Source of the DNA: Bacillota bacterium
Lineage (GTDB): Bacteria > Bacillota > Sulfobacillia > Sulfobacillales > Sulfobacillaceae
DNA length: 43,571 bases
Direction of reading: 5' to 3'
Assembly: GCA_021806205.1 (NCBI GenBank)
Contig: JAJZXX010000090.1
Location: forward strand, 1 to 43,571
The translations under genes and the position numbers were made by a program. Below, piece by piece: positions 6,750 through 25,122 of this stretch. The notes beneath the pieces are model-generated. The model was given only the letters and a program-made list of their open reading frames with translations, did not search any database and was not told the origin of the DNA. Each line of letters starts with the position of its first letter. Positions within the stretch are counted from its first letter, which is position 1.

Positions 6750-7140
6750 CCTGGCGTTCACGCCTGGGGATAGAAGCCCGTGGGCCCGTGAGGGCCAAAA
6801 TCTTGAAGAGTAACGGCTTTTGAGCTAAACGATTCTTGCAAGCGGATTCCTTCGGCGAAGTCCATTGCCCTTTGGGGAATCGGAGGGGGAGTCACTTCTA
6901 CAGACGGGCTTGCGAGCACGAAGAAGCCGCGAGAGTCTTGCGTCGCAAGAACGCCCGAGAGGGTCGGAGCGGTTCGTCTACGACCGGGAGAGTAAGCATT
7001 CGATGCCGAAGAATGTTGTGTGAGGCCCAGGATGGTGTAGGCGTAGTCCATGCCCTTTGGGGGCGACCCGAGAGCCTGGGAGAGCCAACAGGAGACCGGA
7101 ACCCCCCGGACCATGGTCCGGGGGGAGGCTCAAAAAACTC
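6750..7140 (+). mobile_element. Probable orphan right end of an IS200/IS605 (IS1341-type) element with omegaRNA-like sequence
   Basis: This stretch lacks a believable gene. It ends in a perfect 24-bp palindrome (7102-7125) preceded by GGAGACCGGAA and followed by GAGGCTCAA. That arrangement (C-run stem, G-run stem, GAGGTTCA-like tail) recalls the right ends of TnpB-encoding elements, whose guide RNA overlaps the end of tnpB and the right end. No tnpB frame survives upstream, since the MFS gene begins at 6674. The assignment rests on remembered resemblance, so it is tentative. Confidence 0.45.
7102..7125. repeat. Perfect 24-bp palindrome
   Basis: Six C, GGACC, a central AT, GGTCC and six G form a sequence identical to its reverse complement. 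It would fold into a very stable GC-rich hairpin on either strand. It is most easily read as the subterminal hairpin of an IS200/IS605-type right end. Confidence 0.85.
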
Positions 7141-8188: not shown

Positions 8189-9066
8189 TGCTGGCGCACC
8201 TCTTTTCTTAGCTGTTGCACCCTATCGGGGTCGAACGTAGCCACCCCGAGTGTCTCTACACTTGCGCTAGCCGCCGCCACTGCAAATGGTAATGCCTCGT
8301 CAAGCAGGTCCCCCTTCGCCAGTCGTGCTACCAGGGTGCCCAAGAATGTGTCCCCCGCGCCCACTGGATTAATTACGTGCACCTTAGGTGCCAGCCAAGT
8401 AGTCACCTGGCCGTCAGGCCGATGCCAGCTCACGCCATCACGACCCCGAGTAATGACCATTTGTGTCTTTACCGGTCTGCCTTGCCACCCCAGTGCCTCA
8501 TACTCGTCCTGATTTGGTGTGGCGATGGTAGGTTCTTGAGCCAATGCCAATTTGAGGGCAATCCCGGACGCGTCGACGACAATGCCAGCAACCCTCTCCC
8601 GCAATGCGGCAACCCATTTTGCATACGTATCGAGGTTGAGTCCTTGCGGTAAACTGCCCGAAATCGTCACCCAGTCATCGGGTAAGACATTGGCCACAAG
8701 TTTTTTTAGCAGTTGATGCGCAACCTCAGGGTTTACCACCGGTCCCGGCGGACGAAGTTCCGTCACCGTCCCGGTGTCCGACACCAAAGTCAAACACACC
8801 CGCGAGTCTCCCGAGACAGGAACTGACAGCACCGAAAGACCCAGATTCCGAGCCCTTTGGTCGAGTTCAAATCCTACGAAACCACCTAACAAGGTGACCA
8901 CCGCGACAGAGGATCCCAACTGTTGCGCAACCCGGGCCACGTTGTTTCCCTTGCCGCCCAATTGGGCATCCATACCGCGGGCGACGTTTATCGTATCGAG
9001 GGTCAACTCTGGTCCGAGATGGTAGGTGACGTCAAGCGCCGGATTTAGGCTCACGCACCAGATCAT
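8185..9066 (-). CDS. PfkB-family sugar-phosphate kinase (1-phosphofructokinase/tagatose-6-phosphate kinase type)
   Basis: This 293-residue protein begins MIWCVSLNPALDVTYHL, the standard opening of LacC/FruK kinases. It carries GGKGNNVARVAQQLG near residue 38, ISGSLPQGL near 130, PNQDEYEALGW near 180 and the anion-hole/catalytic motif NPVGAGDTFLGTLVARL near 240. It phosphorylates a ketose monophosphate to the bisphosphate, here probably tagatose 6-phosphate. A longer in-frame start at 9201 exists but lies inside the upstream kinase gene. I chose 9066 because GGGAGGG precedes it and the ATG overlaps the upstream stop as ATGA. It is coupled in the same way to the aldolase downstream. Confidence 0.9.
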   Translation of the reverse strand: MIWCVSLNPALDVTYHLGPELTLDTINVARGMDAQLGGKGNNVARVAQQLGSSVAVVTLLGGFVGFELDQRARNLGLSVLSVPVSGDSRVCLTLVSDTGTVTELRPPGPVVNPEVAHQLLKKLVANVLPDDWVTISGSLPQGLNLDTYAKWVAALRERVAGIVVDASGIALKLALAQEPTIATPNQDEYEALGWQGRPVKTQMVITRGRDGVSWHRPDGQVTTWLAPKVHVINPVGAGDTFLGTLVARLAKGDLLDEALPFAVAAASASVETLGVATFDPDRVQQLRKEVRQQ

Positions 9067-22106: not shown

Positions 22107-22868
22107 ATGGATCTCAACAACAAAGTGGCCGTGGTCACCGGGGCAGCCGGGTATATTGGCCGTGCCATTGCCGAGACGTTTCTTGCGGCTAATGCACGCG
22201 TAGCGTTTTTAGACGTTAACTCCGACGGGCTGGACCAGCTAGCGAAAGATCTTCAATCGCGAGGCATCGTGCGTGAACGATGGACCACCGTCACCACTGA
22301 TGTCAGTCAGCCCGAGAGTATTGCAGCGGCGTTCGAATCCGTGGACAACGAATTGGGTCTGTGCGACATCGCGGTCGCCAATGCCGGCGTCGCAGAGGCC
22401 GCGCCCTTTTTGGGTATTACCCTGGCCAACTGGCAGCGGACCATGGATATTAACCTCACCGGGGTCTTTTTGACCTGCCAGGAAGCTGCCCGGCGGATGA
22501 AGCAAAAAGGTGGCGGCGCGCTGATCACTATGTCGTCCACCAACGGACTTGTAGGCGAAAAGCATCTCGCAGCATACAACGCATCCAAGGCTGGCATTCT
22601 GTTGCTCACCAAAACCATTGCCATAGAATTGGCCCCCTTCCATATTCGTGCTAATGCGCTCAATCCCGGCATGATTGACACAGGGCTGGCCAAGCGAGCT
22701 GGACTTGATTCCCTATTCTTGGATGGCTATGTGGATAAAATACCGATGGGCAGGTTCGGCTTGCCTGCGGAGGTTGCGTCGGCCGCCTTGTTTTTGGCCA
22801 GCGATGCCTCCCAATTTATTACGGGGACTGCTCTAGTGATTGACGGCGGTCAACTTTCGGAGGAGTAG
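22107..22868 (+). CDS. Short-chain dehydrogenase/reductase
   Basis: This complete classical SDR of 253 residues has the cofactor loop VTGAAGYIGRAIA (residues 9-21), an acidic residue after beta-2 (FLDVNSD) favouring NAD(H), NAGVAE near 90, the catalytic Ser in MSSTNG, and YNASK near 157. The C-terminal LVIDGGQL is typical. It oxidises or reduces a hydroxyl/carbonyl on a small substrate. AAAGGAGGAG precedes the ATG by about 5 bases. The PLP-enzyme gene begins 6 bases after its stop, so the two are certainly co-transcribed. Confidence 0.92.
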   Translation: MDLNNKVAVVTGAAGYIGRAIAETFLAANARVAFLDVNSDGLDQLAKDLQSRGIVRERWTTVTTDVSQPESIAAAFESVDNELGLCDIAVANAGVAEAAPFLGITLANWQRTMDINLTGVFLTCQEAARRMKQKGGGALITMSSTNGLVGEKHLAAYNASKAGILLLTKTIAIELAPFHIRANALNPGMIDTGLAKRAGLDSLFLDGYVDKIPMGRFGLPAEVASAALFLASDASQFITGTALVIDGGQLSEE

Positions 22869-22874
22869 TGAGCG

Positions 22875-23969
22875 ATGTCAACCCTTAACCAATTGGACAC
22901 CCCATTTGTGGCCGTCGATTTGGATGTGGTCGAGAACAATCTCCTGACCATGCAGAAGAAGGCTGACAGTGCATGTCTCAAATTGCGTCCCCATACCAAG
23001 ACGCACAAACAGCCCTGGTTGGCCCACCGACAGCACGAACTGGGGGCTATTAGTATCACCGTTGCAAAATTGGACGAAGCCGAAGTGATGCTGAATGCAG
23101 GTCTTGCTGACATCTTCATCGCCTACCCGCTAGTCGGAGATTCCAGGGCCCATCGGCTGGCCGCTCTGATGGTTCGGGGTCTAATCCCCACCGTTTCCAT
23201 CGACTCCCATATCTCAATGAAGACCCTGGCCCAAGCCGCCGCTCTGGCGCAAAAGCCTGTGCGCGTGCTGGTGGAGGTGGACACCGGGTTCCATCGTTGC
23301 GGGCTAGCTGGGTCGGGGGTCACTGACCTCGCGTCGGCTATTGCCAAGGAGCCCGGGCTGGAACTAGCGGGGCTGATGTCTTTTGCAGGCCATATAGCTG
23401 GCAACACCAACCAAGATCGCATTGCCGCCATAATCGCCGAGGATGACGAGATACTGGGGAGGCACAAAGACGATCTGTTGAAAGTTGGCCTCGAAATCGA
23501 CACGGTGAGTGTGGGCGGCACCATCTTGTCACATAACCTTGACTATCTCAAATACGCTACCGAGATACGACCCGGCATCTATGTATTCAACGACATGGGA
23601 ATTGTGCGCAGCGGTGCGGCCACCGTCGACGACTGCGCCGCCCGAATCTGGGCCACCGTCGTCAGCCGTCCGGGTCCGGAACGCGCCGTGCTGGATGCTG
23701 GAAGCAAGATGCTGTCGACCGACGGTCCGCTCGATGGATCTTACGGCTATGTCGTCGGACACCCGGGTTGGAAAATTGCACGCATATCCGAAGAACACGC
23801 CGTCGTGGAGTTTCAAGACGGATCCGGTGCCCCCGACATCGGTCAGCGTGTGCAAATTATTCCCAACCATGTGTGTACGGTAATCAATTTGCAAAACAGC
23901 GTCGTCGGAGTGTGCGGCGGCCAGGTGCGTGCCACGCTGCCCATCATGGCCCGCGGCGGCACACATTAA
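22875..23969 (+). CDS. D-threonine aldolase / D-serine dehydratase-like PLP enzyme
   Basis: This 364-residue fold-type III (alanine-racemase-like) PLP enzyme has the cofactor lysine K42 in LRPHTKTHK. VEVDTGFHRCG lies near 135, and the C-terminal metal-binding pair is H332/C334 in IPNHVCTV, the hallmark of the D-threonine aldolase/DSD1 family. Members split 3-hydroxy-D-amino acids into glycine and an aldehyde, or dehydrate D-serine or 3-hydroxyaspartate, with Mn or Zn. GGAGGAG lies before the ATG. Position between an SDR and RidA fits amino acid catabolism in which an enamine intermediate is released. The exact substrate is open. Confidence 0.9.
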   Translation: MSTLNQLDTPFVAVDLDVVENNLLTMQKKADSACLKLRPHTKTHKQPWLAHRQHELGAISITVAKLDEAEVMLNAGLADIFIAYPLVGDSRAHRLAALMVRGLIPTVSIDSHISMKTLAQAAALAQKPVRVLVEVDTGFHRCGLAGSGVTDLASAIAKEPGLELAGLMSFAGHIAGNTNQDRIAAIIAEDDEILGRHKDDLLKVGLEIDTVSVGGTILSHNLDYLKYATEIRPGIYVFNDMGIVRSGAATVDDCAARIWATVVSRPGPERAVLDAGSKMLSTDGPLDGSYGYVVGHPGWKIARISEEHAVVEFQDGSGAPDIGQRVQIIPNHVCTVINLQNSVVGVCGGQVRATLPIMARGGTH

Positions 23970-23974
23970 CGCAT

Positions 23975-24014
23975 TTAAAGGATTAAAGGATTAAAGGATT
24001 AAAGGATTAAAGGA
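23975..24014 (+). repeat. Five perfect tandem copies of an 8-bp unit in the ridA leader
   Basis: The unit TTAAAGGA is repeated five times without a mismatch between the PLP-enzyme stop (23967-23969) and the ridA start (24024). Every copy contains AAAGGA, itself a Shine-Dalgarno-like core, and the last copy merges into the working site AAAGGAGG. Copy-number change would not alter any reading frame but would change leader length and the number of ribosome docking sites. Confidence 0.95.
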
Positions 24015-24023
24015 GGGATTATT

Positions 24024-24410
24024 GTGTCAGTTCAAGCGGTACACACCGAAAAAGCGCCCAAACCGGCGGGCCCGTACTCGCAGGCGATTATAGTCGGTCC
24101 CTTAATCTTTACCGCTGGGGTGGGCCCCATCGATCCAGTCAGCGGCCGGGTGGTAGGCGAAACAGTGGGAGAACAGACCCGCCATGTGCTGAAGAGTCTG
24201 GAGGCGATTCTAGCTGAGGCTGGCGCCACGTTTCGTGATGTGGTAAAGACGACAGTACATTTACACAACCTAAGCCGGGATTTTGCAGACTTTAACCACG
24301 CTTATGGCGAATTTTTCGCCGAACCGTATCCAGTCCGCACTACTGTGGGATCGACACTGAACCGAATATTGGTCGAAATCGATATGGTGGCTTTTAAGCC
24401 TGATCAATAA
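24024..24410 (+). CDS. ridA: RidA-family enamine/imine deaminase
   Basis: This 128-residue member of the YjgF/YER057c/UK114 family hydrolyses reactive 2-aminoacrylate-type enamines released by PLP enzymes to ketoacids and ammonia. Family features are KAPKPAGPYSQAIIVG at the N-terminus, FTAGVGPIDP, the conserved active-site arginine in YPVRTTVG near residue 105, and the C-terminal VEIDMVAF. The GTG start follows AAAGGAGG by 7 bases. It is third in the operon behind the D-threonine-aldolase-like enzyme, so it probably clears that enzyme's enamine product. An unusual tandem repeat fills its leader. Confidence 0.93.
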   Translation: MSVQAVHTEKAPKPAGPYSQAIIVGPLIFTAGVGPIDPVSGRVVGETVGEQTRHVLKSLEAILAEAGATFRDVVKTTVHLHNLSRDFADFNHAYGEFFAEPYPVRTTVGSTLNRILVEIDMVAFKPDQ

Positions 24411-24471: not shown

Positions 24472-25122
24472 ATGTTCGACAGCGAAGCGGCGGTCAAATT
24501 CTTGCAGCAGACCGTGACCGCCCTGGGCCGCATGATGGGAGACAAGTGTGAGGTTGTCCTGCACGACCTGAGATCTCCGGAAACCTCCATCATCGCCATT
24601 GAGCACGGAGAAGTCACGAGCCGCAAGGTAGGCGATCCTTCCACTAACCTCGGACTGCCGGTGTTTAACAATCCGTACGGGGACTACGACAAGTTCAATT
24701 ATCGCTCGACGACAAGTTCTGGAAAAATCCTCAAGTCGTCCTCCGTATACTTCAAAGACCCTTCCGGACGGGTGTTTGCCGCGCTGTGCATCAACTATGA
24801 TATTTCCGAAATGGTGATTGCCTCCAATTTGCTGCGCGATTTCACGAACACCGAAGATCAAGTCGAGGAACATTTCACCACCGACATCAACGAAGTCATT
24901 ACCCGTATTTTGGATGAAACGCTGGAGGCCACGGGAAACGCACTTCTCTTAGGGGACAAAGATGAACGGCTGAAACTCATCCGCACTCTGGACGACAAGG
25001 GCGTCTTTTCCGTCAAGGGAACGGTAGACCGCGTCGCCAAGCTGCTGGGAGTGTCCCGGGTAACCGTGTATGGGTACCTCAACGAAGTACAGGCCATGAA
25101 GCGCACCAACGTGATTGGGTAA
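24472..25122 (+). CDS. YheO/DauR-type transcriptional regulator (PAS-like plus HTH)
   Basis: This 216-residue protein has an N-terminal YheO-type PAS-like domain (residues 5-115: LGRMMGDKCEVVLHDLRSPETSIIAIEHGEV, NYRSTTSSGKILKSSSVYFKD) and a C-terminal helix-turn-helix (residues about 165-210: DDKGVFSVKGTVDRVAKLLGVSRVTVYGYL). This is the layout of DauR, the D-arginine utilisation repressor, and of related regulators that often sit beside RidA and amino acid catabolic genes. GGAGGTGA precedes the ATG. It probably senses an amino acid metabolite and controls this operon, the facing nitrilase operon, or both. Confidence 0.88.
   Translation: MFDSEAAVKFLQQTVTALGRMMGDKCEVVLHDLRSPETSIIAIEHGEVTSRKVGDPSTNLGLPVFNNPYGDYDKFNYRSTTSSGKILKSSSVYFKDPSGRVFAALCINYDISEMVIASNLLRDFTNTEDQVEEHFTTDINEVITRILDETLEATGNALLLGDKDERLKLIRTLDDKGVFSVKGTVDRVAKLLGVSRVTVYGYLNEVQAMKRTNVIG

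Follow-up and report, generated by a model that had tools for sequence, protein, structure and literature searches.

Tandem repeats in untranslated leaders, where a change in length is neutral to the reading frame, have been described for the synthetic ribosome-binding-site repeats of Egbert and Klavins (2012, as relayed in PMC5263891 and PMC3936740) and for the variable G-repeat of Helicobacter pylori tlpB (PMC8295292), both of which tune expression. The five-copy octamer array found before ridA belongs with these leaders, but its unit is itself Shine-Dalgarno (SD)-like, the spacer between SD and start lies outside the array, and the array is known from one genome of the species. Coupled operon junctions (PMC10666635, PMC12548453) provide a second comparison: the neighbouring genes lie on the same strand and relatives have a short gap with an SD, whereas here the gap, enlarged by the array to 54 nt, exceeds the efficient range. 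Finally, the CsrA/RsmA-controlled leaders of hag, hcnA and pgaA (PMC4066749) share with the ridA leader at least three A(N)GGA sites, one of them over the SD, and a csrA gene in the genome. Unlike in those leaders, the sites here derive from a perfect repeat, lie 8 nt apart, are putative and were picked out by an unselective rule. The ridA array is real and of an already known, ordinary kind.

Table 1. Features of the ridA locus (positions in the analysed window)
Feature	Coordinates	Strand	Evidence
SDR-family dehydrogenase, first gene of likely operon	22107..22868	+	Pfam adh_short_C2 E 2.9e-63
PLP enzyme, D-serine dehydratase / D-threonine aldolase / BhcC-like kind	22875..23969	+	Pfam D-ser_dehydrat E 3.4e-24, Ala_racemase_N E 2.7e-23
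Five perfect tandem TTAAAGGA units	23975..24014	+	sequence, tandem-repeat call, shuffles
AAAGGAGG, likely working Shine-Dalgarno (last unit + GG)	24009..24016	+	sequence; duplex energy
ridA, Rid family deaminase, GTG start	24024..24410	+	TIGR00004 112.7 bits, above cut-off; Pfam Ribonuc_L-PSP E 1.8e-30
YheO/DauR-like PAS_6 + HTH_22 regulator, next downstream of ridA	24472..25122	+	Pfam PAS_6 E 1.6e-34, HTH_22 E 2.9e-18

The window analysed is the 43,571-nt contig C175 of a draft genome of 3.77 Mb in 254 contigs. The four plus-strand genes of Table 1 (SDR dehydrogenase, PLP enzyme, ridA and PAS-HTH regulator) are separated by successive gaps of 6, 54 and 61 nt and likely form an operon. The PLP enzyme, which can also be described as D-serine-dehydratase/3-hydroxyaspartate-aldolase-like, scored 171.8 bits against the BhcC model, far below the cut-off of 690, and its TAA (23967-23969) is the left border of the array. 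RidA proteins clear reactive enamines, such as 2-aminoacrylate, produced by PLP enzymes (PMC9127364, PMC5636819). Hence, it makes sense that a PLP enzyme adjoins ridA.

The first-pass annotation had described an exact five-copy TTAAAGGA array filling the ridA leader, with AAAGGA in each unit, of slippage type and free to change the leader length without breaking a frame, and all of this was confirmed. The array is uninterrupted, with 5 copies of 8 bp, 100% matches and a tandem repeats finder (TRF) score of 80, and is clearly the top array of the window. It was never reproduced in 100 dinucleotide shuffles, which excludes a chance origin. Because it lies wholly between the upstream TAA and the ridA GTG at 24024, gain or loss of units leaves the reading frames intact. 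Such a perfect tandem repeat in a regulatory position is a feature by which contingency loci are recognized. The array contains no ATG, GTG or TTG, and TAA is present in all three of its frames; alternative starts or a longer RidA beginning inside the array were thereby ruled out. No promoter-like site was found in the array or just upstream of it.

A second site with two adjacent TTAAAGGA units was not found in the draft genome. Statistics on arrays genome-wide rest on a 737-kb sample; there, no other perfect array outside coding sequence reached four copies. On contig C19 (L188, positions 8691-8737), a 12-bp array (GGTGAACCCCCT × 3.9) looks in-frame coding, as VNPL repeats.

We have then considered which part of the array serves ridA. 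The five units are not equivalent, as only the fifth continues into GG to form AAAGGAGG. The terminal AAAGGAGG is followed by a 7-nt spacer (24017-24023) and pairs with the anti-SD tail at -13.5 kcal/mol, against -5.8 kcal/mol for an internal unit. The standard tail was assumed in this calculation, since pattern and Rfam searches of eight genomes of the genus found no 16S gene. The four internal units have no start codon within reach. Together, these data indicate that the terminal AAAGGAGG is likely the SD used to start ridA.

Folding of leaders with one to nine units predicted that the cost of opening the SD shifts by about 1 kcal/mol or less, with no trend, and that the GTG is slightly more or less exposed depending on whether the copy number is odd or even, an effect of weak unit-to-unit pairing. 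With no trend in the modelled accessibility, extra units are not expected to raise initiation; moreover, the distance from SD to start stays constant whatever the copy number. Folding of the whole region was no better than that of shuffles. A putative coupling-switch stem between the upstream stop region (CACACATTAA) and the ridA start (TTATTGTGTC) was rejected, as 914 of 2,000 shuffles paired equally well.

The enzyme-ridA pair is also present in the genomes G001 (two copies), G003, G007, G029 and G013 (two copies), in none of which it is accompanied by the array. The junctions of G007 and G029, which are placed in different genera, were counted once, since 4,079 bp around the pair (L143, G007:C18; L144, G029:C94) are 99.4% identical; this identity reflects either a recent transfer or a misbinned contig. 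Six orthologous junctions were thus compared (two in G001, one in G003, one for G007/G029 and two in G013). Their stop-to-start gaps measure 10-25 nt, compared with 54 nt here, and each holds a single GGAGG-type SD that, at several junctions, overlaps the stop codon. In G013 (L125, contig C11), one ridA homologue carries at its start a 9-bp tandem duplication (ATGGATGCG) that doubles the start codon. In the 42 genomes of the order, three copies of AAAGGA with a period of 8 were found at just two sites, this one and one in G039, and three units with trailing GG were found in 1 of 398 sampled genomes of the phylum, namely this one. This rarity, with the absence of the array from the relatives, shows the array to be young and specific to this lineage.

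These results suggest that the array probably arose when slippage expanded the ribosome-binding site of ridA in this lineage, widening the spacer and uncoupling ridA from the upstream enzyme. We infer an ancestral leader with a single unit, reading TAA-CGCAT-TTAAAGGA-GGGATTATT-GTG, whose 22-nt gap would resemble those of the relatives; the gain of four further octamers by slippage would be the simplest route to the present state. One to five units correspond to stop-to-start distances of 22, 30, 38, 46 and 54 nt, respectively. Ribosomes would initiate ridA at the terminal AAAGGAGG, and the upstream units would form an A-rich leader devoid of start codons, acting at most as a landing pad. The main physical effect would likely be that ridA starts 54 nt past the upstream stop instead of about 22 nt, outside the efficient termination-reinitiation range.

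In Escherichia coli gene pairs, a 14-nt gap lowers reinitiation by 40-80%, and a 38-nt gap by 80-90% or fully (PMC10666635). The stop-start overlap or very short gap typical of translational coupling is absent here, and since 54 nt exceeds the efficient range, ridA would be translated independently of the upstream enzyme. By the same E. coli data, however, the relatives' own gaps of 10-25 nt would couple only partly, and scanning across longer gaps has been reported in vitro (PMC12548453). Loss of coupling to the upstream gene nevertheless appears likelier than tuning by the number of docking sites, and additional copies would have a near-neutral effect.

The copy number might have no consequence at all for ridA expression, the array being a neutral product of slippage. 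Its unique and lineage-specific occurrence and the lack of a copy-number trend in the folding model are compatible with this, but the gap has more than doubled relative to the relatives, which should affect any coupling; we consider strict neutrality unlikely. It was also proposed in the first-pass annotation that gain and loss of units, if frequent, could step RidA output between cells. An uninterrupted perfect five-copy octamer array in a leader speaks for such a rheostat, and synthetic repeats near ribosome-binding sites do tune output (Egbert and Klavins 2012, in the account given by PMC5263891 and PMC3936740). Against this, a correctly spaced SD is provided by the last unit only, a change in copy number leaves the SD-to-start spacing as it is, and the SD accessibility of the model is trendless, the mild odd/even alternation in GTG exposure notwithstanding. 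Multiple standby sites on synthetic leaders, in addition, gave no cooperative gain (PMC3936740). The companion claim of that annotation, that the number of docking sites tunes RidA, was not supported: only the terminal AAAGGAGG stands at a usable distance from the start and accessibility is predicted to be trendless over one to nine copies, so that such tuning is not favoured. Furthermore, ridA is a metabolic gene of the housekeeping type and differs in this from most known contingency genes. Taken together, a contingency rheostat is quite unlikely.

A dimeric CsrA could instead bridge the A(N)GGA motifs of the array and block the ribosome at ridA. CsrA is encoded in the genome (PF02599 match, 73.6 bits, contig C90), and the ORFs beside it read as flgL and fliW. 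The array contains five A(N)GGA motifs. The ridA leader as a whole holds six such sites, including one that overlaps the SD; this is the maximum among 619 sampled leaders, whose start codons were picked by a simple script and not from annotation. The leader also satisfies a published, CSRA_TARGET-like rule (three or more A(N)GGA sites including one at the SD, with at least two pairs 10-60 nt apart). Yet 85 of the 616 leaders sampled (14%) satisfy this rule, which hence hardly discriminates, and the high site count is due to the repeat itself. Neighbouring units, 8 nt apart, fall under the 10-nt bridging minimum, and only pairs at least 16 nt apart would serve (PMC4066749); the relatives, in turn, retain csrA but lack the array. 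Regulation by CsrA is therefore highly improbable, and the ridA leader as a candidate CsrA target is only a lead.

It also seems very unlikely that the number of units controls the degree of uncoupling of ridA from the upstream enzyme (or the amount of CsrA bound) and thereby shifts, in heritable and reversible steps, the ratio of the PLP enzyme to the deaminase, which may clear reactive by-products of that enzyme. Were the copy number to vary and have an effect, the locus would be a natural counterpart of the synthetic repeat-tuned ribosome-binding sites; the targets of repeat tuning would then be a metabolite-damage-control gene and the stoichiometry of an operon.

For now, the locus is a clear case of SD motifs multiplied by slippage, with independent parallels before unrelated genes. 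The literature on tandem or duplicated Shine-Dalgarno sequences yielded no direct counterpart. Among the matches listed for non-coding tandem TTAAAGGA arrays, which come from many phyla, 13 of 57 immediately preceded the start of an ORF in the sense orientation, compared with 2 of 57 in the antisense orientation, indicating that SD units are duplicated recurrently. In G039, an unrelated, independent AAAGGACG × 3 array (L166, C82:2791-2812, minus strand) directly precedes the SD AAGGAGGG, and the ORF behind it is small (61 aa) and membrane-like, and is not ridA. In a Deltaproteobacterium metagenome-assembled genome (L029, at about 6886-6925), five perfect TTAAAGGA units are separated by 7 nt from the ATG of a downstream ORF of 102 aa.
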